Origin: Bacillus sp. 491mf
Lineage (GTDB): Bacteria > Bacillota > Bacilli > Bacillales > Bacillaceae_G
DNA length: 37,007 nucleotides
Direction: 5' to 3'
Assembly (NCBI RefSeq): GCF_900112415.1
Contig: NZ_FOLV01000037.1
Coordinates: forward strand, 1 to 37,007
Part shown: one piece after another, positions 17,167 to 37,007 of the stretch
Layout of the letters: every line of letters begins with the position of its first letter
How positions within the stretch are numbered: position 1 is the stretch's first letter
Notes under the pieces: model-generated
Told to the model about the DNA's origin: nothing
What the model saw: only the letters and a program-made list of their open reading frames with translations
Databases searched by the model: none
Program-made: the position numbers and the translations under genes

Positions 17167-17440
17167 AGAAAATGCTAATTAATAACCTATCAGGGGTCAC
17201 CATACATGCCCATCAACTTAGGGATTTTATAACGCCCCCAAAACGAAAAAAATGAGTCGAACTCTTATAAATAACTGTAAAAAGGTAAAATTTTCGTTAT
17301 GGGGGATGTCTCAAAATATTATCTTAATGCGTATGTAGTGGATCACTTAATACAGCTATACAAAATAATTAATTTAATTAAAAATACATTTCATTCGTTT
17401 TTTTTATGTATTTACTATAACTTGAATCTCCAGAAAGCAA

Positions 17441-18455: not shown

Positions 18456-20114
18456 TACGCCCATAAACTTAAGAGCATTAACTACCCCAAGGTGTACAAA
18501 AACGTTATTCTTTCTAAACAAGACTATTAGAAAGGATGACGTTTTTTATGAATCTTTCCATTCAAAGTGAGCTGCAATTATTTGCTGAAGAATTATATGA
18601 ACATCTTACTCCTTCATTTCTGGAAAATCTCGCTAAAGAACTAGGGTTTGTACAACGGAAACGAAAGTTTTCTGGTCATGATTTAGCTACTATCTGTGTC
18701 TGGATTAGTCAACGAGTAGCAAGTGATTCTTTAGTGAGACTGTGTAGTCAACTTCATGCTGTTACAGGAACACTTATGAGTCCAGAAGGACTCAATAAGC
18801 GTTTCAATAAAAAAGCTGTTTGCTTTTTAAAACATATTTTCTCTTCGTTATTAAAAAGTAAAATTTGCGAAACATCAGTGATTCCTAGTTCTTCAATCGC
18901 TTATTTTCAACGAATTCGTATTTTAGATGCAACGATTTTTCAAGTGCCAAAGCATTTAGCTAGTGTGTATCCTGGATCAGGTGGTTGTGCTCAAACAGCG
19001 GGTATAAAAATCCAGTTAGAATATGATTTACACAGTGGCCAGTTTTTAAATTTCCAAGTGGAACCAGGGAAAAATAATGATAAAACCTTTGGAACAGAGT
19101 GTTTAGCAACATTACGTCCTGGGGATCTATGTATTCGGGATTTAGGCTATTATTCACTGGATGATTTAGATCAAATGGACCAACGTGGCGTGTATTACAT
19201 ATCACGGCTCAAATTAAACAATAGGGTGTATATCAAAAATGAATTTCCTGAATACTTTCGAAATGGGACAATAAAAAAACAATCTCAGTACATCAAAGTT
19301 GATTTAGAACACATTATGGATACCTTAAAACCAGGACAGGTCTATGAAATAAAAGATGCTTATATTGGAAAGGATAAAAAATTATTCACTCGAGTGATTA
19401 TGTATCGATTAACAGAGAAACAACTTCGTGAGCGTATGAAAAAACAAGTGTACACAGAAAGCAAAAAGGGCATTACATATTCGGAAAAAAAGCAAACGAT
19501 TAGCTGGCATGAACCTATATGTTACCAATACACCTTGGGAGATTGTTCCGATGGAACAAATCCATAATTTTTACTCTCTCCGCTGGCAAATTGAAATCAT
19601 TTTTAAAACTTGGAAATCCTTATTTCAAATTCATCATTGGCAACATATTAAACAAGAGCGATTAGAATGCCATGTTTATGGAAAACTCATTGCCATTTTT
19701 CTATGTTCTTCTACTATGTTTAAGATGCGACAATTAATTTTACAAAAGAAGAAACAAGAATTAAGTGAATATAAAGCAATCGGAATGATTCAAGATCATT
19801 TACACATTTTATATCAAGCCATACAGCAAAACACCCAAGAAATAACAAAGATTCTAATCCGACTATTCCACTTACTCCAAAAGAACGGCCGGAAATCTCA
19901 TCGATATGAAAAGAAAACAGTCTTTGATATTTTGGGTGTTGTCTATGAGTATAATGGATTGAGAAAACAGAAGAAAGCTGCATAATTTTTAAAAACGATA
20001 CCTATAAAGGTTTATTTGGTATGGTCATTTTTAAAGACACGAAATATTTCAAGAGTTTTTTCGTTTATATGAACGAAAGTTCATTTTGTTTCCTCTCTTA
20101 AGTTGATGGGCATG
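18456..20114 (+). mobile_element. IS231-family insertion sequence
   Basis: Left end tacgcccataaacttaag (18456-18473) and right end cttaagttgatgggcatg (20097-20114) are IS231-type inverted repeats, about 1.66 kb apart, the family's length. The left flank ggagtcgccata (18444-18455) resembles the right flank gggtcaccata at two mismatches, so the left end was probably itself inserted at, or duplicated from, the same target. Confidence 0.8.
18548..19985 (+). pseudogene. IS231 transposase (IS4 family), frameshifted
   Basis: The intact protein would be about 478 aa. The first frame ([20 protein letters not shown]...) carries the catalytic start [13 protein letters not shown] and [18 protein letters not shown], where the two Asp of DDE lie. 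It leaves frame after QTISWHE near 19505-19515. The remainder reads in the +1 frame as [20 protein letters not shown] and [17 protein letters not shown], which contains the IS4 signature Y-(2)-R-(3)-E-(6)-K. A one-base insertion or two-base deletion at the junction explains this. The copy is probably inactive, but it may have been mobilised by a related active IS231. Confidence 0.88.
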
Positions 20115-20125
20115 GGGTCACCATA

Positions 20126-20472
20126 TCAAAAAAAGAAAATTGTACGTTTAGACACAATTTGGACATAAAATATCCGATTCCTTGTATGCTAAGGGACCGG
20201 ATATTTATTTTACTGTTTTATATAGCGTACAATTTCTCGCTTACGAGGTCTGTGTAGCAACCGAACCAAATCTTACGTTAAGTATTAGTGGACATCAAAA
20301 ATAGTAATGACTAAACCAGATTAACATCCATCCGATTCACAATTAAATATACCAATATGTTAAATAGCTAAGTAATACAAACGGTATGAAAAGAATTTCT
20401 ATTCTTTTCACACTTTTTTAAATTTGTTTATAAGTTTCATACGAAATACGTGGAAAGATGGCAGCCTCTCTT
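20126..20472. other. Intergenic stretch with two terminator hairpins
   Basis: About 350 bases. aaatatccg...cggatattt (20168-20206) is a hairpin, and gaaaagaat...attcttttc (20387-20412) followed by a T run lies 60 bases downstream of the kinase stop on the minus strand and probably ends the two-component operon. No gene is seen. Confidence 0.5.
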
Positions 20473-21495
20473 TTATAAATAAGGCTCAAAAGTTACCATA
20501 CCTGACAACGGAAATATTAATGTAACTCTAGTTCCTTTATTCACTTCAGATTCAATGCCAATTTTCATTCCTAATTTTGAGCACAGTTTTTCGCATAGAT
20601 ACAAGCCCATTCCTGTACTTTTGCTAAATCTCCTTCCATTCTCTCCAGTAAATCCTTTTTCAAAAACTCTATTTATATCTTTAGTTATTATCCCTACTCC
20701 ATTATCCTCTATAGTTAGTATTACTGAGTTAGCTTTCTTAATTGAGTATATACGTATCATTTGTTCTTTGTTATTTGAGTACTTTATAGAATTTCCTATT
20801 ATTTGATTAATAATAAATTCAACCCATTTTCTATCACTATATACGATTTTATTAATATCTTTTATATCTAATTTTATTCTCTTATGAATAAAATCTCTAT
20901 AATTTCTTTTAATTACAGTTCTTACTAGATCATCAAGGTCAATTGGTTTTATAATATAGTCCTTACTGACATTATTGCTTCGAGAATAATACAGCACCTG
21001 TTCTACAAACCTTTCGATTCGATCCATTTGGGAGTCTATTTTATTAGTTACTTCATTTTGATTGTTTTCAATTATTAGCTTTGTAGAAGCTATCGGCGTC
21101 TTAATTTCATGCACCCATGTTTCTATATATTCTCTATAATCCGCTTGCATATCTCTATAATATTTTACATTCTCATGCATATCTCTACTTATTTCTTTTA
21201 GTATAGAGGTAAGCTTTTCCCCATGTAGAAAGTTTGCTTCCTTTACTACCTCTGGAAGTAGGTATTTTTTCTCCAAGTTTTCTAATATGCCATTGATCTC
21301 GTTATAATAATTTTTGCATTTTATAAATTCTATAGCCATATATGAAATCAATGGAAAAAACCAAATACAAAAGACAAAGAATATTATAATGAACTGAACA
21401 TTCGCAGTCAGCAATATACCTGCTAGTATAATAAATACCAGTACATTAGATAGTATTACTACCATTTTATCTTTAATAAATTCACCTGTATTCAT
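20473..21495 (-). CDS. BceS/YxdK-like intramembrane-sensing histidine kinase
   Basis: 340 aa. Two transmembrane helices (about residues 11-30 and 33-55) have almost no loop between them, the hallmark of Bce-type kinases that sense through the partner transporter. The dimerisation/phosphoacceptor box is ETWVHEIKTPIASTKLI with His at about 129. The ATPase domain shows FIINQIIGNSIKYSN (N box), LTIEDNGVGI (G1) and KSTGMGLYLCEKL (G2). The start overlaps the stop of the response regulator by four bases, so the two are co-translated. With the ABC transporter downstream in the same region it forms a four-component antimicrobial-peptide detection and resistance module. Confidence 0.88.
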   Translation of the reverse strand: MNTGEFIKDKMVVILSNVLVFIILAGILLTANVQFIIIFFVFCIWFFPLISYMAIEFIKCKNYYNEINGILENLEKKYLLPEVVKEANFLHGEKLTSILKEISRDMHENVKYYRDMQADYREYIETWVHEIKTPIASTKLIIENNQNEVTNKIDSQMDRIERFVEQVLYYSRSNNVSKDYIIKPIDLDDLVRTVIKRNYRDFIHKRIKLDIKDINKIVYSDRKWVEFIINQIIGNSIKYSNNKEQMIRIYSIKKANSVILTIEDNGVGIITKDINRVFEKGFTGENGRRFSKSTGMGLYLCEKLCSKLGMKIGIESEVNKGTRVTLIFPLSGMVTFEPYL

Positions 21496-22163
21496 GGCAT
21501 TATATACCCTAGCTTTCTTCTTGTTTCTATTGGATTTTCTATACCTATCTCTTCAAGCTTTTTTCTTAATCTATTTATATTAACAGTTAAAGTGCTATCA
21601 TCCACAAAATAATCAGATTTCCATAAGGATTCCATGAGTGAATCTCTTTTTACAATATTACCGCGATTATTTATTAAGCATGAGAGTATCTTAACTTCAT
21701 TTTTAGTTAAATCTACGGACTTGTCTTGATAAGTAACCGTTGCATTCGAAAGGTTCAAATGAATGTCTTTATAATGTAAGATGTTATTCGTCTTTATGCC
21801 TCCATAAGCTCTTCTTAAAACATTTGTAACTCTTGCTAACAATATTTCTGTATTATAAGGCTTTGTTATAAAATCATCTGCTCCTAAATTCATACTCATT
21901 AGTTCATCTACATCACTATCTCTGCTCGTAACCATTATAATTGGAACATCTGAAGTTTTACGTATTTCTCTGCATATATAATAACCATCAAACACAGGAA
22001 GATTTATGTCTAGTAATATAAGGTTTGCATTCTCGTTTTCTACATATTCGATAATATGATTAAAATCTATGGGAGCCTTTACTTCATATCCATACTTTTC
22101 AAAAAAAAATTGTAACTCTTCTCTTATAATTTCATCATCTTCAATAAGAATGATCTTTTTCAT
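21492..22163 (-). CDS. BceR/YxdJ-like OmpR-family response regulator
   Basis: 223 aa. The receiver domain has the acidic pair IEDDE (residues 8-10), phosphoacceptor Asp in LILLDINLPVFDG (about 52), VTSRDSDVDELMSMNLGADD and the invariant Lys in ITKPYN. The C-terminal OmpR/PhoB winged helix is visible as LTKNEVKILSCLINNRGNIV and DDSTLTVNINRLRKKLEEIG. It is co-translated with the kinase. It should activate the ABC transporter genes and yxeA upstream; matching operator-like sequences are listed at 25088-25104 and 25833-25849. Confidence 0.9.
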   Translation of the reverse strand: MKKIILIEDDEIIREELQFFFEKYGYEVKAPIDFNHIIEYVENENANLILLDINLPVFDGYYICREIRKTSDVPIIMVTSRDSDVDELMSMNLGADDFITKPYNTEILLARVTNVLRRAYGGIKTNNILHYKDIHLNLSNATVTYQDKSVDLTKNEVKILSCLINNRGNIVKRDSLMESLWKSDYFVDDSTLTVNINRLRKKLEEIGIENPIETRRKLGYIMP

Positions 22164-22244
22164 GGATTTTCCCTCGCTATATAGAATATAAGGCTATTAA
22201 ACCTTAAGTAACAAGATTTAATAGCCTTAATAATTATTATAAAA

Positions 22245-24236
22245 TCAAGTATTACCTTTTACTATATTTTTATACCCGATATATGTTGTGTAGAAATATC
22301 CTGCATAAACTACAATAAATATTAGCGCTGTCATGAACGCTGAAAAACTAATATTTGTTGGTTGAAGTTCGTTTACAAAATCATTAGCTACCTTAATCCC
22401 GATTACTGAATGAACGAACGCAAGAGTAATTGGAAAACTAAAGTACACTAAGGTTTGAATGAAAATGGTTTTGTCTATCATTTTTCTGTTTGATCCAATT
22501 CTCTTCAAAGATTTATATCTTTCTATGCTGTCGCTGGCTTCTGATAATTGTTGAAGAGCTAATACAGCCATACTGGTTATTAAAAATACAATACCTACAT
22601 ATATCCCAACAAATAGTATAATAGTTGTTATTCCCTTACTTATTTCATAAGCTCCATCCCTTGATATGCTAGTTATACTTTTAACATTTATATTCGTACC
22701 TTTCTTATAAAAGTCTGCTGTAATTCTATCATCATCATATTTTTTATTATGTTCTTTTTTATTTCCGTCTAAATAATTTACATTAAGTACGGATGTACTA
22801 ATTTTGTAGCCTGATAAAAACTCATCATTTATAACGATTGTGAATACATTATTTAACCCATCAAAAGTTTGAAGATTTTCTTGTATAACTTTAGGATTTT
22901 TTACTAGATATTCTTTTTCTTTAATATTCATCTTATTGCTATTTTTTAATCTTTCATTTATTGGATTAACCAACTCGTTATGATTTGATAAAAGCAAAAC
23001 TTCATTGTTATTTAAATCGATTTCTTTTTCACCTTTAAGTGTTAAAATTTTATTGTAATCAGATACTTTAATGAAATCCACATCACGACCCCTAAATCTT
23101 TTGGGTTTTTTTGTTAAAAAATCACTGACTTTCATCCCTGTATGATATACATTATAAGATACATATTTTTCGTTATTACTTTTTTTAAAATTTATTGTAT
23201 TTAATGCGTCTTCTATAGTGTAACTTTCATCATTATTTTCCAACATAACACTAGCATCAAAAGGTGTTGCTGCTTTCATTGCTGCGTCTGAACTTCTTTT
23301 TAAGCTTATTCCTGTAGATAAAACTACCATTGTAATAAATAACATTAAACAAATTAAAGATATGGATATAAAATTTGTATTAACCTTACTATTTAGTTGT
23401 TTGATGATAAATATATTTAACCCTTTAAAATAGACTTTTTTATTTTTCTTTACAACATACAATATAAATCCAGATAAGCTAAAGAAAAACAACAATGTAC
23501 CTAATACTCCAAGAAGTATTGCTACTATGAGCATAGGATTTCTAAAATTTAACCCTATCTTTAGTACAGAACTATATGCAAATCCAAGTGATACCACGCA
23601 TAAAATCAATGTTATTACATATATGATAGGATTTTTAAATTTTATCTCTTCGCTTTTTCTACCTGCTGTTAACATGTCAATTATTTTGTATTTAGAAACA
23701 ACATATACATTAAATAACATAACAAGCAAAAACATGATTCCAAAGTATAATACAGTTTTACCTATAGCACCTGTTGAAACTGCAAACTTATATCCATCTA
23801 TGGGCAAATCGAATAACTTTAATGTAAATGTAGATAATCCCTGTGATACTCCAATACCTAATATAAGTCCACTTATTAAAGATATAACGCCAACTAAAAA
23901 TGTCTCTGTTACTAATATTCTGGATATATTTTTTCTTCCCATACCTAAAGTCATATATATTCCTAATTCTTTTTTACGTTTTTTAATTAAAAAATTATTT
24001 GCATAGAGTATTAAACTACCCAATATTACAGATACAAATACTGACACACCTGAGATAAAGTCCATTAAAGTGGACACATACGCTCTACCTGATCCTTCAA
24101 TTTCCGTAAGTGCCTTTTGTGATTCTATCGAGTTAAAGCTATAAAATATACAAACAGCTAGTGTTAGTGTTAAGAAATATATCGCATAATCCTTAAAACT
24201 TTTCTTTACATTACCAACAGCAATCTTAGAATACAT
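22245..24236 (-). CDS. BceB/YxdM-like ABC transporter permease
   Basis: 663 aa from the ATG at 24236, chosen because GGAGGTG ends eight bases before it; the frame reaches 24254 only through a GTG/TTG-type extension. The layout is that of Bce-type permeases: one N-terminal helix, a bundle (FtsX-like) around residues 55-260, a large extracellular domain of about 200 residues (between roughly 335 and 540) and a final three-helix bundle with the ALQQLSEASDSIERYKSLKR coupling helix. The big domain recognises peptide antibiotics and passes the signal to the kinase. It overlaps the ATPase gene by 11 bases. Confidence 0.9.
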   Translation of the reverse strand: MYSKIAVGNVKKSFKDYAIYFLTLTLAVCIFYSFNSIESQKALTEIEGSGRAYVSTLMDFISGVSVFVSVILGSLILYANNFLIKKRKKELGIYMTLGMGRKNISRILVTETFLVGVISLISGLILGIGVSQGLSTFTLKLFDLPIDGYKFAVSTGAIGKTVLYFGIMFLLVMLFNVYVVSKYKIIDMLTAGRKSEEIKFKNPIIYVITLILCVVSLGFAYSSVLKIGLNFRNPMLIVAILLGVLGTLLFFFSLSGFILYVVKKNKKVYFKGLNIFIIKQLNSKVNTNFISISLICLMLFITMVVLSTGISLKRSSDAAMKAATPFDASVMLENNDESYTIEDALNTINFKKSNNEKYVSYNVYHTGMKVSDFLTKKPKRFRGRDVDFIKVSDYNKILTLKGEKEIDLNNNEVLLLSNHNELVNPINERLKNSNKMNIKEKEYLVKNPKVIQENLQTFDGLNNVFTIVINDEFLSGYKISTSVLNVNYLDGNKKEHNKKYDDDRITADFYKKGTNINVKSITSISRDGAYEISKGITTIILFVGIYVGIVFLITSMAVLALQQLSEASDSIERYKSLKRIGSNRKMIDKTIFIQTLVYFSFPITLAFVHSVIGIKVANDFVNELQPTNISFSAFMTALIFIVVYAGYFYTTYIGYKNIVKGNT

Positions 24237-24993
24237 TATTATCGTCACCTCCAAGAAGGGTTATTACTTCGATAATCTTATTAAAGAATTCTTTTCTAGA
24301 ATCATTCCCTCTTATCAACTCGCTAAATATTTTTCCATCTTTAATAAAAAGAATTCTACGAGCATAGCTTGCTGTAAATGCATCATGAGTAACCATTAGT
24401 ATTGTAGCTTTCAAATCCTTATTTAGACTTTCAAATCTTTCAAGTAATAACCTAGCTGATTTAGAATCTAATGCTCCTGTTGGTTCATCTGCAAGTACTA
24501 AAGATGGATCTGTTACGATAGCTCTTGCCGAAGCAACCCTTTGTTTTTGTCCGCCTGACATTTGATAAGGGTATTTGCTTAATACTTGTTCAATGTCTAA
24601 ATATTTTGCAACTGCTTGTATTTTGCCATCAATTTTTGAACTTTCCTCACCTTTTATTGTTAACGCTAGGGCAATATTTTCATAAGCAGTAAGGGTATCT
24701 AATAAATTAAAGTCCTGAAATATAAACCCTAATTCATTTTGTCTAAACTTATCTAGTGACTTTGATTTTAACCGAGTAATGTCACTATTATTTATTATTA
24801 TTTTTCCCGTAGTAACATTATCAATCGTTGATATACAGTTCAGTAATGTAGTTTTGCCACTTCCTGAAGGCCCCATTATTCCAACAAATTCTCCCTCATC
24901 TACCTTAAAACTAATATTATCTATAGCCTTTGTTACATTATCTTTATTACCATAATATTTTTCAATTTTTTCTACACTTAATATATTTCGCAT
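24226..24993 (-). CDS. BceA/YxdL-like ABC transporter ATPase
   Basis: 255 aa. Walker A is GPSGSGKTT (residues 41-49), the Q loop lies in GFIFQDFNLL, the ABC signature is MSGGQKQRV, and Walker B with its glutamate is LVLADEPTGALDS, followed by the H loop in MVTHD. This is the MacB/LolD-like branch used by Bce transporters. Its 3' end contains the ribosome site of the permease. It is the first gene of the transporter pair; the promoter lies in 24994-25120, where an operator-like direct repeat is found. Likely role: release of target-bound antimicrobial peptides from the membrane. Confidence 0.92.
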   Translation of the reverse strand: MRNILSVEKIEKYYGNKDNVTKAIDNISFKVDEGEFVGIMGPSGSGKTTLLNCISTIDNVTTGKIIINNSDITRLKSKSLDKFRQNELGFIFQDFNLLDTLTAYENIALALTIKGEESSKIDGKIQAVAKYLDIEQVLSKYPYQMSGGQKQRVASARAIVTDPSLVLADEPTGALDSKSARLLLERFESLNKDLKATILMVTHDAFTASYARRILFIKDGKIFSELIRGNDSRKEFFNKIIEVITLLGGDDNNVF

Positions 24994-31658: not shown

Positions 31659-32711
31659 ATGAAACAAACGTATTCCTCACAACTGATTGAAACTATATCC
31701 CTGGAAGTAGAATCTTCACCCGTTTGGGAAGTTATCCTAGGCATAGCTGGATACACACATGCACGAATTAGACATACATTTGATTTAGACGAGAAATGGC
31801 TGACAGACCAGAGTTCTATGCCTACGTCACTTATAGATGTTCTACAATTGATACAAGAGACTAACTTCTGGTACGGATTGCTTATGCTTCAAAACAGATT
31901 ATCTTCATCATCTGTTTCAGATTTTTCGAATCATCTTTATAACCTCTCAGCTGACTGTATATATGAAACTATTTTGCCATATGGAGGTCGGGAGCTTGAA
32001 CCTTTACGAAAAGAAGCTGTCGAGGCTGCTGCTTTCCGTCATAGCTTAGCCTCATTTGAGGAATATGCTACACATTTTAATGACCATGATTATTTATGTG
32101 GATACGTTCGAAGTTTAGCTCGTTACTCCCGTGAGGAATTATGTGCCCTTTTTATTGAAGTGATTACAGAGTGGCATAGCTGGATAAGTCAGCAGGAGGA
32201 ATGGGAGAAGTGGAATAAAGCATTATCTTTTGAACAAAAACAACATGATTCATTGGATATTACTAGACCTGTTGAGGAGATTGAACGTATTACGGACGGA
32301 GTGAGATATCAGCCAGAGCCATCTATTTGGACTGTCAAACTGATTCCTCATGTTTCATATCGTCCCTGGGTTTTAGAGCAAAGAACTTCGGACACTAAAT
32401 TATTATTTTATCCATTGAAGGACGAATATTTGCTAGAACCTGGGATACCATCTATTGATCTTGTTCGCGGCCATAAGGCATTAGGAGATGAAATTCGCTT
32501 ACGATTGCTATACCAATTGTTAAGGGGACCTTCATCTCTTCAAGAGATGAGCACCCAATTCAATATTTCAAAGACTACCCTGCATCATCAACTTTCACTA
32601 TTGAAAGCTGCAAAATTCATTAAGGTTGATAAAGGAATATATTCTGCCAATCCAACACAGCTTACTCACTTTTCCAGACGTCTTACCCAGTACCTTGGAG
32701 ATGACATATGA
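31659..32711 (+). CDS. ArsR-family regulator with DUF5937-like N-terminus
   Basis: 350 aa, much longer than plain ArsR proteins (about 100). The N-terminal 260 residues are the mixed helical domain of DUF5937-type regulators (LIETISLEVESSPVWEVILG, YGGRELEPLRKEAVEAAAFR). The C-terminal winged helix reads LGDEIRLRLLYQLLRGPSSL and SKTTLHHQLSLLKAAKFIK, the ArsR HTH; the metal-binding Cys residues of classical ArsR are absent, so the signal is not a metal. AGAAAGGAGG precedes the ATG. Its stop overlaps the start of the exporter by four bases (ATGA), so it probably controls that exporter's expression in response to an unknown small molecule. Confidence 0.8.
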   Translation: MKQTYSSQLIETISLEVESSPVWEVILGIAGYTHARIRHTFDLDEKWLTDQSSMPTSLIDVLQLIQETNFWYGLLMLQNRLSSSSVSDFSNHLYNLSADCIYETILPYGGRELEPLRKEAVEAAAFRHSLASFEEYATHFNDHDYLCGYVRSLARYSREELCALFIEVITEWHSWISQQEEWEKWNKALSFEQKQHDSLDITRPVEEIERITDGVRYQPEPSIWTVKLIPHVSYRPWVLEQRTSDTKLLFYPLKDEYLLEPGIPSIDLVRGHKALGDEIRLRLLYQLLRGPSSLQEMSTQFNISKTTLHHQLSLLKAAKFIKVDKGIYSANPTQLTHFSRRLTQYLGDDI

Positions 32712-33928
32712 AGAAATACTCTAAATCATTTAAGGCACTATGGGTGGGCGAAGTTGTATCGGAATTTGGTGGGGCGGCTGGCGGAATTCTAAACGGACTG
32801 TTACTATATCAAGTCACAGGTTCTAAGGAATGGATGGGGGTACTCTGGCTTATCTATTTTATTCCTTCTTTGCTTCTACAAATTATAAGTACTCCCTTTC
32901 TTAATTATGTTGTAAAGGAGAAGGTGCTTCGTAACATACAGCTTATTCGTTCCTTTGCATACCTTTTTCCTCTGGCTGGATATATCACAGATAAGTACAC
33001 AGGAACCATCCTAGGGTTAATTATTCTGCAATGTACATTGGGACTGTTGCAGCCCATCTATGCTAGCATTTCTTTTTCCCTGCTCCCTGATATTTGTAAA
33101 GAAGAGGAGCTTACTCAGGCAAATGGATTATTAGATGCTACCATTCGCCTTATGAGTTTTATAGCTCCCGGAGCTACATCTTTGTTACTACTAGTAAGTC
33201 CTATACATTTTATTTATGTATTTTCATCTATTATGTTCTTTATCAGTTTTCTTTCACTATTACAGATTCCTATAAGAAGTACAGAAAAAGTGGCTACCTG
33301 GTCAAAAAGGTTTTGGTGGGCTGAAATGAAGACAGGATACCGTATATTCTTCAAGTATCCTTCTCTCTTAAAATTGTCTCTTCTTTCCTCCACCGTCCAG
33401 TTTGCAGTAGGAACAGCAATGGTTATTGGTATTCCGTTTATAAAAGGAGAACTTAACGGTCACTCATGGGAATATGCCATCTTTTCTGGTGCTTTCCCAA
33501 TCGGCTATGCACTCGGAATGGTCTTACTTACACGGGTTCCTAAAACACCTCAAACTATGTATCTTGGTTTAATAGGAGGAGGTCTCTCCTTTGTCCTATT
33601 ATTCTTTGTTCATTCCATACCATTAGCTTGGATATGTGAGTTATTCGGAGGGATTGCTTTTCCACTTTTTAATGCTCAAAGTGCAGCCGTTTTTCAGCGT
33701 GAAGCTCCTAAAGATCGCCTACCCCAACTTAGCGCTGTACGTTTGCTCTTTCTCCGAATCACTATGCCAATAGGCATAGTGTTCGCATCGTCATCCTTCT
33801 TACATATGAATATAAGGCAGACATATGGAATTGCCGGATTAATAATTATCTTACCAGGATTATTCTATTTATTTTCTTCACTGTTTCAAAGCAAACTACC
33901 AGTGAAGAAAGAGAAGAAGACAAGTTGA
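32708..33928 (+). CDS. MFS exporter, transposon cargo
   Basis: 406 aa with about 12 membrane helices. The start KKYSKSFKALWVGEVVSEFG and the following FGGAAGGILNGLLLYQVTGS, IYFIPSLLLQIISTPFLNYV match the macrolide-efflux/enterobactin-exporter-like branch of the major facilitator family. Substrate not predictable from sequence; drug or peptide export is likely given the mobile context and paired regulator. Translation is coupled to the ArsR-type gene. The 262 bases downstream to the transposon end hold a weak hairpin (about 33965-34001) and no gene. Confidence 0.85.
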   Translation: MKKYSKSFKALWVGEVVSEFGGAAGGILNGLLLYQVTGSKEWMGVLWLIYFIPSLLLQIISTPFLNYVVKEKVLRNIQLIRSFAYLFPLAGYITDKYTGTILGLIILQCTLGLLQPIYASISFSLLPDICKEEELTQANGLLDATIRLMSFIAPGATSLLLLVSPIHFIYVFSSIMFFISFLSLLQIPIRSTEKVATWSKRFWWAEMKTGYRIFFKYPSLLKLSLLSSTVQFAVGTAMVIGIPFIKGELNGHSWEYAIFSGAFPIGYALGMVLLTRVPKTPQTMYLGLIGGGLSFVLLFFVHSIPLAWICELFGGIAFPLFNAQSAAVFQREAPKDRLPQLSAVRLLFLRITMPIGIVFASSSFLHMNIRQTYGIAGLIIILPGLFYLFSSLFQSKLPVKKEKKTS

Positions 33929-34240
33929 TTACAAGAGCAATGTTTTAAAACAATAATTCCTCTTGAGTAGGTAGTCATTTGATATTTTCTACTTACTCTT
34001 ATGTCTATATTTTTTGTTGCTATCCATAATTAAATCAACAATCTTAATAATCTTTTCTTAATATTGCTGTCTATAGCAAAAATGTTTATTTTGACTACAA
34101 CCAAAATAGCAACAATTTAGTAAATATTGTATTTCCATGACCTATTTTTACACGTATCTCGGCTGAATCCCAATCTATTTAGTATCTAATTGGTATATTT
34201 TGTCTTATTCCCCCTTTTCGGGGGATGGGCAAAGTTACCC

Positions 34241-34603
34241 AAATTAAGGTTATCTTTCATTGCCTTATCTGTAATACTTAGTATCGCATTCGTATTCTTT
34301 GTACAAAAAAAGGATGTCATTTTTCAAGAAGGAAATCCGATACCACTGGCAATTGCTATGTCAAAGATGGTACTTGCAGATAAAAATATAATGGAAGTGC
34401 AAACAGATGATATTACCCATCCTTATTTAGTAAAACAAGGAGAGCTAGATCCTTATATTGAAATGAAAGAGAAAAACGGATGGGAATTTATAAGTAGAGA
34501 TATATACGGAAATTATTTAACTTTTCAAAAAGGAAATACAACAGAAAGTATTCCTTACAGATATTTCACACGATATTATACAATCATTAATTTCCAATAT
34601 TAG
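34241..34603 (+). pseudogene. Membrane-anchored hypothetical protein, 5' end lost to the transposon
   Basis: The frame emerges from the transposon end and reads KLRLSFIALSVILSIAFVFF (one membrane helix), then a soluble part with DITHPYLVKQGELDPYIEMK and KNGWEFISRDIYGNYLTFQK, ending at 34603. The native start, and any residues before the helix, were removed or replaced by transposon sequence; a short fusion starting within the end is theoretically possible. It reads away from the transposon, as does the DUF4306 gene on the other side, so the two are not halves of one gene. No family is recognised. Confidence 0.5.
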
Positions 34604-34611
34604 TAAATGCA

Positions 34612-34916
34612 TTTACTTCCAATAACGGGAATTATGGTACGACAAGAAGTCGCATTCCCACAGTGTAGCTTCCGCTACTAGACTAGATGTAAAGTCTATC
34701 TCCATCCGAAACTGCGGACTTGGTAACAAGTCCGTGGGTTGCATGAGGAAATGAGGAAACAGAGAGTCTGTACATGGCTCAGAATACTGCTAGGAGAAGA
34801 CAAGTATGGTGAACGAGTGTGAAGGCTTGCAAGCTTCGTAACCGTTAGCTTGGGATAATGTACAGCGTTGCCCCTCGCTTACCCGACTAAAACTTAACTC
34901 CTCTTTTCGGGGGATG
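34612..34916 (+). ncRNA. About 300-bp structured non-coding repeat element (possible IS605-type 3' end, omega-like RNA or intron fragment)
   Basis: No sustained frame is present, yet the stretch is markedly GC-richer than its surroundings and full of short stems: gactagatgtaaagtc, cggacttggtaacaagtccg, aggcttgcaagcttc. It starts acttccaataacggg, a 15-mer also found at 17116-17130, and ends with a degenerate copy of the 39-bp transposon end (about 34890-34916). A short reading GTTRSRIPTV near its 5' side would fit the extreme C-terminus of an IS605 TnpB, whose guide RNA overlaps the gene's 3' end. A group II intron domain fragment is the main alternative. Confidence 0.4.
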
Positions 34917-34951
34917 GCCAAAAACACCTATATATTTTTTTACAAGAAATA

Positions 34952-34996
34952 ATAAAAAAGGCTTATTCCTTGTAAGGAAATCAAGCCTTTTTATTA
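34952..34996. terminator. Bidirectional terminator downstream of the 26-aa peptide
   Basis: aataaaaaaggctt and aagcctttttatta enclose an inner ttcctt/aaggaa stem. A and T tracts on both sides allow use from either strand. A further inverted repeat aaatgatctgt/acagatcattt (35010-35020 and 35042-35052) lies between it and the peptide gene. Confidence 0.75.
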
Positions 34997-35085
34997 TTTA
35001 GACTCACACAAATGATCTGTACATCAATTTAACTTTGATAAACAGATCATTTATACGATGATAATTCATTGTAAAAAAGTAAAGT

Positions 35086-35166
35086 TTACGCAAAAGCTTT
35101 TAGAAGTTCTTGAAAAAATGGAATGATTCCACCTAAAAATTTTAAAATTGCCATTACAGCTGCCAT
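35086..35166 (-). CDS. 26-aa amphipathic peptide, PSM-like or leaderless-bacteriocin-like
   Basis: ATG at 35166 is preceded by AAAGGAGGAATTATT, an ideal ribosome site. The peptide begins MAAVMAILKFLGGIIPFFQE and ends with LLKAFA, stop at 35086-35088. It is almost wholly hydrophobic with only K9, E20 and K23 charged, has a GG hinge and a Pro at 16, and would form a membrane-active helix. There is no leader or GG-type cleavage logic, so it resembles phenol-soluble modulins or leaderless bacteriocins; a type I toxin is another possibility. No transporter or immunity gene adjoins it. A strong terminator follows. Sequence evidence for translation is good; the activity is inference. Confidence 0.7.
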   Translation of the reverse strand: MAAVMAILKFLGGIIPFFQELLKAFA

Positions 35167-35365
35167 AATAATTCCTCCTTTATAATTTTCTGAATATTAA
35201 GAACTTTATAAGTTCATTTTATTATAAAAGTAATAATATTACAATATGTTTTTTGGATCTTTAAGGAAGTTTTTTTAGAATACCCTTGTATCTTAGAGAT
35301 CGGGTACGGAAACGATTCTAAATGTGAGGGGACAATCTTAAGTTGATAGATATATGGTGCTACCC

Positions 35366-35466
35366 CATGTCCATCAACTTAAGATTTTGAAATTCCCCCA
35401 AAACGAAAATTTTGTGCATTATGCTCGTTTTTATTGTTTTGAAGTAACCTGTTCTTGATAGCGATG
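35366..35466. mobile_element. 101-bp IS231-ended MITE-like element
   Basis: The left end is catgtccatcaacttaagat (35366-35385) and the right end ttgatagcgatg (35455-35466). Inside is a subterminal inverted pair, ccccaaaacgaaaa with gttttgaagtaacc. Flanks ggtgctaccc (35356-35365) and ggcggtaccc (35470-35479) differ at two positions and resemble the Tn4430 tip. A degenerate opposite-facing end, aatcttaagttgat, ends at 35347. Confidence 0.55.
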
Positions 35467-35592
35467 TGGGGCGGTACCCAATAAAGTGAAAGTCAATATT
35501 ATAAAAACAGTACCTCATTTTTCCAATCAAGGTATAATAGATGTAGGAATTTTCACTCAACTAAAGAATAAAAATGAGAGGAAGTGAATTTA

Positions 35593-35721
35593 GTGTTTGT
35601 ACCATCTAAATTAAAAAAAGGTGATGAAATACGAATTATTGCACCGAGTAGAAATGTAAAAATCTTATCTGAAGAAGGTATTCTACAAGCCGAAGTTAAG
35701 ATAATTGGAAAATGTTGGTGA
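35593..35721 (+). pseudogene. N-terminal fragment of an S66 LD-carboxypeptidase/MccF-like gene
   Basis: Starting at GTG 35593 behind GAGGAAG, 42 residues read FVPSKLKKGDEIRIIAPSRN, the N-terminal strand motif (LKKGDxIxIIAPS) of S66 peptidases, which include LD-carboxypeptidases and the microcin C immunity protein MccF. Then KILSEEGILQAE, and the frame leaves homology and stops at 35719-35721. Family members are about 300-340 aa; the catalytic Ser, Glu and His are all missing. The break coincides with the change to GC-rich DNA upstream of the methyltransferase gene, so an insertion or recombination event replaced the rest. Confidence 0.7.
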
Positions 35722-35874
35722 GCCCCCTTTAAGGAAATAAAGTCTTAGACTGACCGGGAGGCATTAAGCTAACGGACAGGTATGTGCGATCTAGAAAGGA
35801 AGCGTTCCTTTTGTCAAAATGATAACAAGCATCTAATTATTACGCTCTTCTCCGCAGAAAGTGAGGTTCTGACC

Positions 35875-36817: not shown

Positions 36818-36852
36818 GGAGTTAAGATAATTAACGAATGCTGGCGGTACCC

Positions 36853-36971
36853 CATCGCTATCAAGCTAAGATTTTAAAGTAACCCCTAAACGAAAACTTT
36901 GTGTTTTTTATAGCACCGAAGTTCATTTTTATCGTTTTGGGGCAACCTGTTCTGTTAGGTTGATGGGCATG
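36853..36971. mobile_element. 119-bp IS231-ended MITE-like element
   Basis: The left end catcgctatcaagctaag (36853-36870) and right end ttaggttgatgggcatg (36955-36971) are IS231-type. Inner arms aacccctaaacgaaaac and atcgttttggggcaacc are shared with 35366-35466. The left flank aatgctggcggtaccc is the tip of a Tn4430-like end. Confidence 0.55.
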
Positions 36972-37007
36972 TCGTGTGACCCCTATATAAAAGATTTATT
37001 TGAAGTT

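Follow-up and report, generated by a model that had tools for sequence, protein, structure and literature searches.

An Spp-like peptide gene without a PlcR box in plasmid-like DNA of Bacillus sp. 491mf

Spp peptides and the gene in the window

In the Bacillus cereus group, Spp ("small PlcR-regulated peptide") was described as a peptide of 26 amino acids containing Gly-Gly at positions 12-13 (Brillard and Lereclus 2007, PMC1913518, cited here and below for the part of its text that was accessible). Genomes of the B. cereus group were reported to contain at most three spp genes, with a PlcR box approximately 100 bases upstream; spp1 was found to share a transcript with a cholesterol-dependent cytolysin gene (clo, cereolysin O), whereas spp2 and spp3 stood without a cytolysin (PMC1913518). 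The three B. cereus genes were placed in the PlcR regulon as sppc1-3 in the accessible text of PMC2464732. Synthetic Spp1 was tested in 2007, and the 26-mer produced a small inhibition zone whereas the C-terminal 13 residues were stronger and bactericidal, at millimolar concentration (PMC1913518). This antibacterial effect is the sole activity of Spp reported in the accessible text; its authors proposed a cut after Gly-Gly, could not rule out that hydrophobicity acted nonspecifically at doses this high, had no evidence of Spp being made and secreted, and left its role open (PMC1913518). In a literature search, no later study on the role of Spp and no paper on 'phenol-soluble modulin-like' together with Bacillus was found.

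The window, which is the whole stretch of 37,007 nt that was analysed, was found to contain a 26-codon frame with an ATG start codon on the minus strand (Table 1). In a single pairwise comparison, 17 of the 26 residues of the encoded peptide were identical (E 5e-12) to Pep1 (Spp1) of B. cereus ATCC 14579, the letters of which were taken as printed in the methods of PMC1913518. The identity of Pep1 to the other members, the window peptide set aside, was 73-85%, and the window peptide was 58-62% identical to the copies of Bacillus arachidis. An alignment of eight sequences was found to contain 11 invariant columns out of 26, the Gly-Gly at 12-13 included. The window peptide is thereby a 26-residue homologue of Pep1 with Gly-Gly at the family position, and the PlcR box approximately 100 bases upstream was absent from the window copy. 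Because it is an Spp homologue by sequence and departs from the family in the PlcR box, it was filed as an Spp-like plasmid-borne variant and not as a PlcR-regulated Spp. As judged from its sequence, the gene is not new in kind but a homologue of the family described in 2007 in B. cereus. As a whole, the frame is very probably best explained as a plasmid-borne homologue of the Spp family with a membrane-disturbing action and independent of PlcR. No family matching the window peptide was found in Pfam and NCBIfam, and no model for the Spp family was found there either.

The motif AGGAGG was found 4-11 bases 5′ of an ATG in eight cases in the whole window (ATG starts only; seven of the 15 table rows were TTG or GTG and were left out). 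Seven of these ATGs start frames of 135-393 codons, and the eighth starts the 26-codon spp-like frame, so that AAAGGAGG looks like a real ribosome site. The hydrophobic moment of the peptide was 0.401, a value as high being found in 4/20000 shuffles, and its charged residues were two K and one E. The earlier note, made from the letters of the window, had proposed an unannotated short frame with a good ribosome site and an amphipathic, almost uncharged product; each of these points was borne out, the frame by homologues of the same length. The window frame is an unannotated gene, bearing a ribosome site, for an amphipathic and probably membrane-active peptide. A second copy was searched for within the window and none was found.

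Table 1. Positions of the spp-like gene, its signals and other elements of the window
Feature	Position	Strand	Basis or remark
spp-like gene, 26 aa, MAAVMAILKFLGGIIPFFQELLKAFA	35166..35086	minus	ORF list; homology to Pep1 and B. arachidis copies
Ribosome binding site AAAGGAGG	35181..35174	minus	ATG follows after 7 bases
Candidate promoter TTGTAA-17-TAAAAT	35244-35216	minus	weak match
TATAAT	35221-35226		overlaps candidate promoter; resembles -10 of relatives
Conserved hairpin AAATGATCTGT...ACAGATCATTT	35010..35052	minus	shared by the window, one IMG/VR contig and three B. arachidis loci
Terminator-like hairpin with T-run, AAGGCTT...AAGCCTTTTTT	~34953..34991	minus	fold prediction
Segment similar to plasmid labelled Arthrobacter citreus	34632-34860		82.6% identical to CP053689.1; no Rfam match
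Small convergent gene	34241-34621		84% DNA identity to hypothetical gene at one of two NZ_CP127373.1 spp loci
MFS gene	32708-33928		Pfam MFS_1
ORFs called a Bce module in the earlier note	20473-24993
Dispersed non-coding repeat	35334-35422, 36848-36987, 17205-17329, 20096-20126		also in L003, L012 and L014

Relatives on other replicons and upstream control

A tblastn search of plasmids, suggested in the earlier note, was run with the window peptide on 72,556 plasmid records and gave three records with 26-codon homologues, all from B. arachidis YX15; the same three plasmid records were found with other members as query, Pep1 included. They were found to contain ten copies in total. The 217-kb plasmid NZ_CP127373.1 contained a lone copy besides three in tandem (146-base unit), the 78-kb plasmid NZ_CP127374.1 contained a tandem array of five (163-base unit) with one copy spanning the record start, and the 9.9-kb plasmid NZ_CP127375.1 contained one single copy. 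One more 26-codon copy was found on a 79-kb IMG/VR contig. Thus 11 copies besides that of the window were found, ten of which were readable in full and encoded 26 residues each, the remaining one being that which crosses the record start. None of the nine fully read B. arachidis copies was annotated as a gene in the plasmid gene table, which is incomplete by its own description. In both arrays (NZ_CP127373.1, L012; NZ_CP127374.1, L003) each copy contained its own ribosome site and the frames were near-identical. The ribosome sites of the relatives were GAGGAGG or GGAGGTG, at a position similar to that in the window.

On NZ_CP127374.1, 48 bases separate the end of the array of five from a gene annotated as thiol-activated cytolysin, which follows on the same strand; the two may be co-transcribed, as in spp1-clo. 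Among the genes listed next to the other B. arachidis copies no cytolysin gene was found, nor was one found in the ORF list of the window, which was checked by eye; a cytolysin gene directly downstream was treated as a trait of spp1 only and was not demanded of every copy. Neither tandem arrays nor a copy free of the PlcR box are described in the accessible parts of PMC1913518 and PMC2464732.

Phages gave no match by tblastn and DNA search, and viral contigs scanned with Pep1 gave nothing beyond the IMG/VR contig already known. In a peptide-alignment scan of contigs of species genomes, 73 stretches were matched, and comparison with the window peptide at E 1e-3 confirmed none of them; as one of the two patterns also accommodates Pep1, this result may reflect the confirmation step with a 26-residue query and not absence. 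The sampling is thin, since the relatives come from the plasmids of one strain and from one contig.

The strict PlcR box TATGNAN4TNCATA was found in all five of the other transcription units, 79-92 bases before the first ATG. Four of these units lie on the three B. arachidis plasmids and one on the IMG/VR contig, one upstream stretch being only 169 bases long; in mononucleotide-shuffled upstream stretches the box occurred in 7/10000. In the five other units a AAGCGCTTA palindrome that resembles a cre site adjoins the -10 box, and the window was without this palindrome. In the 300 bases upstream of the window gene no PlcR box was found, in either the strict form or the relaxed form ATGhAwwwwTdCAT (PMC2464732, accessible text). 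Any expression of the window copy would therefore come from another promoter, independent of PlcR, and the window copy is apparently a PlcR-independent plasmid variant. Promoter-like sites around the window gene numbered 12 on both strands against 4.3 expected, with low scores.

PlcR belongs to the RNPP family. A regulator of this family was found on NZ_CP127373.1 at 170286-171164 (L018; PF18768, 101.7 bits), a match present in one of four records, and on the same plasmid two PlcR boxes precede a total of four spp copies.

Downstream hairpins and neighbouring genes

The earlier note had placed strong hairpins after the frame. Two were predicted on the minus strand (z -3.93); however, the opposite strand of this stretch was found to fold at least as well relative to its shuffles (z -4.78), and a simple terminator scan listed no terminator on either strand. 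The relatives were found to contain a terminator-like hairpin AAGTCCCT...AGGGACTTTTTT, the sequence of which is unlike that in the window. A pattern search for the conserved hairpin gave no stretch in contigs of species genomes and one in viral contigs, namely the IMG/VR contig already found.

The 50-base hairpin element (the conserved hairpin of the window; L001, L002, L012 and L014) was found to be better conserved than the peptide gene. Conservation of the frame relative to its flanking DNA, on which the earlier note had let its reading depend, was thus seen in part: the coding sequence was 74-78% identical to the relatives, but the hairpin element was identical at 46 of 50 positions between the window and L014, as counted on the alignment. 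The DNA similarity of the window to the B. arachidis and IMG/VR loci spans the peptide gene and the hairpin. With B. arachidis and Priestia plasmids the window was found to share pieces of 80-91% identity, none of which spans most of the window.

The nearest transporter found was the MFS gene, approximately 1.2 kb from the peptide gene; the ORFs of the presumed Bce module lie at approximately 10-15 kb. In the earlier note both had been raised as possible protectors of the producer; the MFS gene was confirmed by its Pfam match, but nothing ties it or the Bce ORFs to the peptide.

The similarity of the small convergent gene to the hypothetical gene of NZ_CP127373.1 was found to start just past the start codon of the relative, the preceding DNA being unmatched. 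This gene, taken as 34241-34603, was considered as an immunity partner and the idea was dropped, because 12 of the 15 plasmid records with a relative of it are from Priestia and no Priestia plasmid was found to contain the peptide.

The Peribacillus and Pseudalkalibacillus matches to the window probably stem from the dispersed non-coding repeat. No Rfam family was found in the window at gathering score; a permissive search of 34150-35800 gave three matches (E 0.86-0.89), all far under their gathering scores.

Function, competing explanations and known systems

As a best guess, the product of the window gene would be a membrane-active antibacterial peptide. The leaderless 26-residue amphipathic helix would exit the cell, perhaps being cleaved after Gly-Gly, and would perturb the membranes of competing Gram-positive bacteria; in the relatives it may work alongside the cytolysin too. 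The earlier note had named a phenol-soluble modulin (PSM), a leaderless bacteriocin and a type I toxin as candidates: the antibacterial direction agrees with the activity of synthetic Spp1 as given in the accessible text of PMC1913518, whereas Spp itself had been missed.

The spp gene was found to occur on plasmids, to be amplified threefold and fivefold, and to be able to stand without the PlcR box and the cytolysin, and a cytolysin-free copy lets the function of the peptide itself be asked separately. It is tentatively suggested that a plasmid spp lineage, marked by the downstream hairpin, was arrayed in one host and elsewhere shed its PlcR control while the peptide was kept, giving a free-standing plasmid bacteriocin. 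If this is true, a peptide of the quorum-sensing regulon of B. cereus was turned into a PlcR-independent plasmid bacteriocin.

Alternatively, the window copy could be an spp gene in decay, which came with a plasmid segment common to B. arachidis, was severed from PlcR and is drifting without function. The PlcR box and the cre-like palindrome are missing upstream, and the flanks contain dispersed repeats and truncated similarity. In four pairs of the window with relatives, over 26 codons, pS was 0.21-0.24 and pN 0.22-0.23, whereas pairs between relatives (three) were mixed. Under simulated substitution of the window frame, set against three relatives, 14-26% of the frames stayed open with as few amino-acid changes as observed; since pS is about equal to pN and the amino-acid changes are no fewer than simulated, purifying selection is not visible. 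However, the frame has stayed open at 22-26% DNA divergence from the relatives, at which about half of the simulated frames gain a stop, and the ribosome site, the Gly-Gly and the pattern of charge and hydrophobicity are intact. Of the simulated frames, 0.1-0.7% stayed open and were no further off in hydrophobicity than the real one, and 1.1-1.5% stayed open and retained the charged residues (three relatives each). The conserved hairpin is retained and a terminator-like hairpin is present. Decay is regarded as possible but doubtful, and the window copy as probably functional.

That the peptide is secreted and acts on eukaryotic cells as a surfactant or cytolytic agent in the manner of PSMs, with or without the cytolysin, is unlikely. 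The short leaderless amphipathic helix, the PlcR boxes of the relatives and the array that precedes a cytolysin gene would suit such a peptide, whereas no export gene was recognised and the activity reported in the accessible text of PMC1913518 is antibacterial. Far less probable is the toxin of a type I toxin-antitoxin pair stabilising the plasmid: a short hydrophobic peptide in a plasmid-like location would suit it, but the tandem arrays of the relatives with their own ribosome sites, the PlcR boxes and the operon-like arrangement with the cytolysin do not fit, and no antisense gene was recognised, only weak promoter-like matches on both strands. A chance open frame, conceivable for 26 codons in a region with 41 ORFs of at least 20 aa in 3 kb, has practically no probability left, as homologous frames, equally long, on other replicons and in B. 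cereus already refute it.

The Spp-like peptide may finally be set beside the known systems. The PSMs are a Staphylococcus family of short leaderless amphipathic helices with a dedicated exporter. The window peptide is likewise short, leaderless and, as a putative helix, amphipathic, and a quorum-sensing box is a feature of its relatives; it differs in that no dedicated exporter was recognised beside the window gene, and the two are likened by features and not by sequence. Leaderless bacteriocins are usually longer and are accompanied by dedicated transport or immunity genes. The window peptide is leaderless and hydrophobic as they are, the antibacterial activity being that of synthetic Spp1 (PMC1913518, accessible text), whereas no immunity or transport gene was recognised beside the window gene in the ORF lists inspected by eye.

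With the spp-like genes of B. arachidis YX15, the window gene has the length of 26 aa, the downstream hairpin and the plasmid location in common. In contrast to the window copy, those genes carry the PlcR box and the cre-like palindrome, eight of the ten copies stand in tandem arrays, and one of the arrays is followed by a cytolysin gene. With Spp and sppc1-3, the window gene shares the 26 residues, the Gly-Gly at 12-13, an own ribosome site and the fate of being missed by annotation. It differs from them in its location on plasmid-like DNA, in being without a PlcR box and in having no adjoining cytolysin gene, which spp2 and spp3 are likewise without, and its peptide deviates from Pep1 at residues 2-4, 7, 11, 14, 17, 18 and 26.
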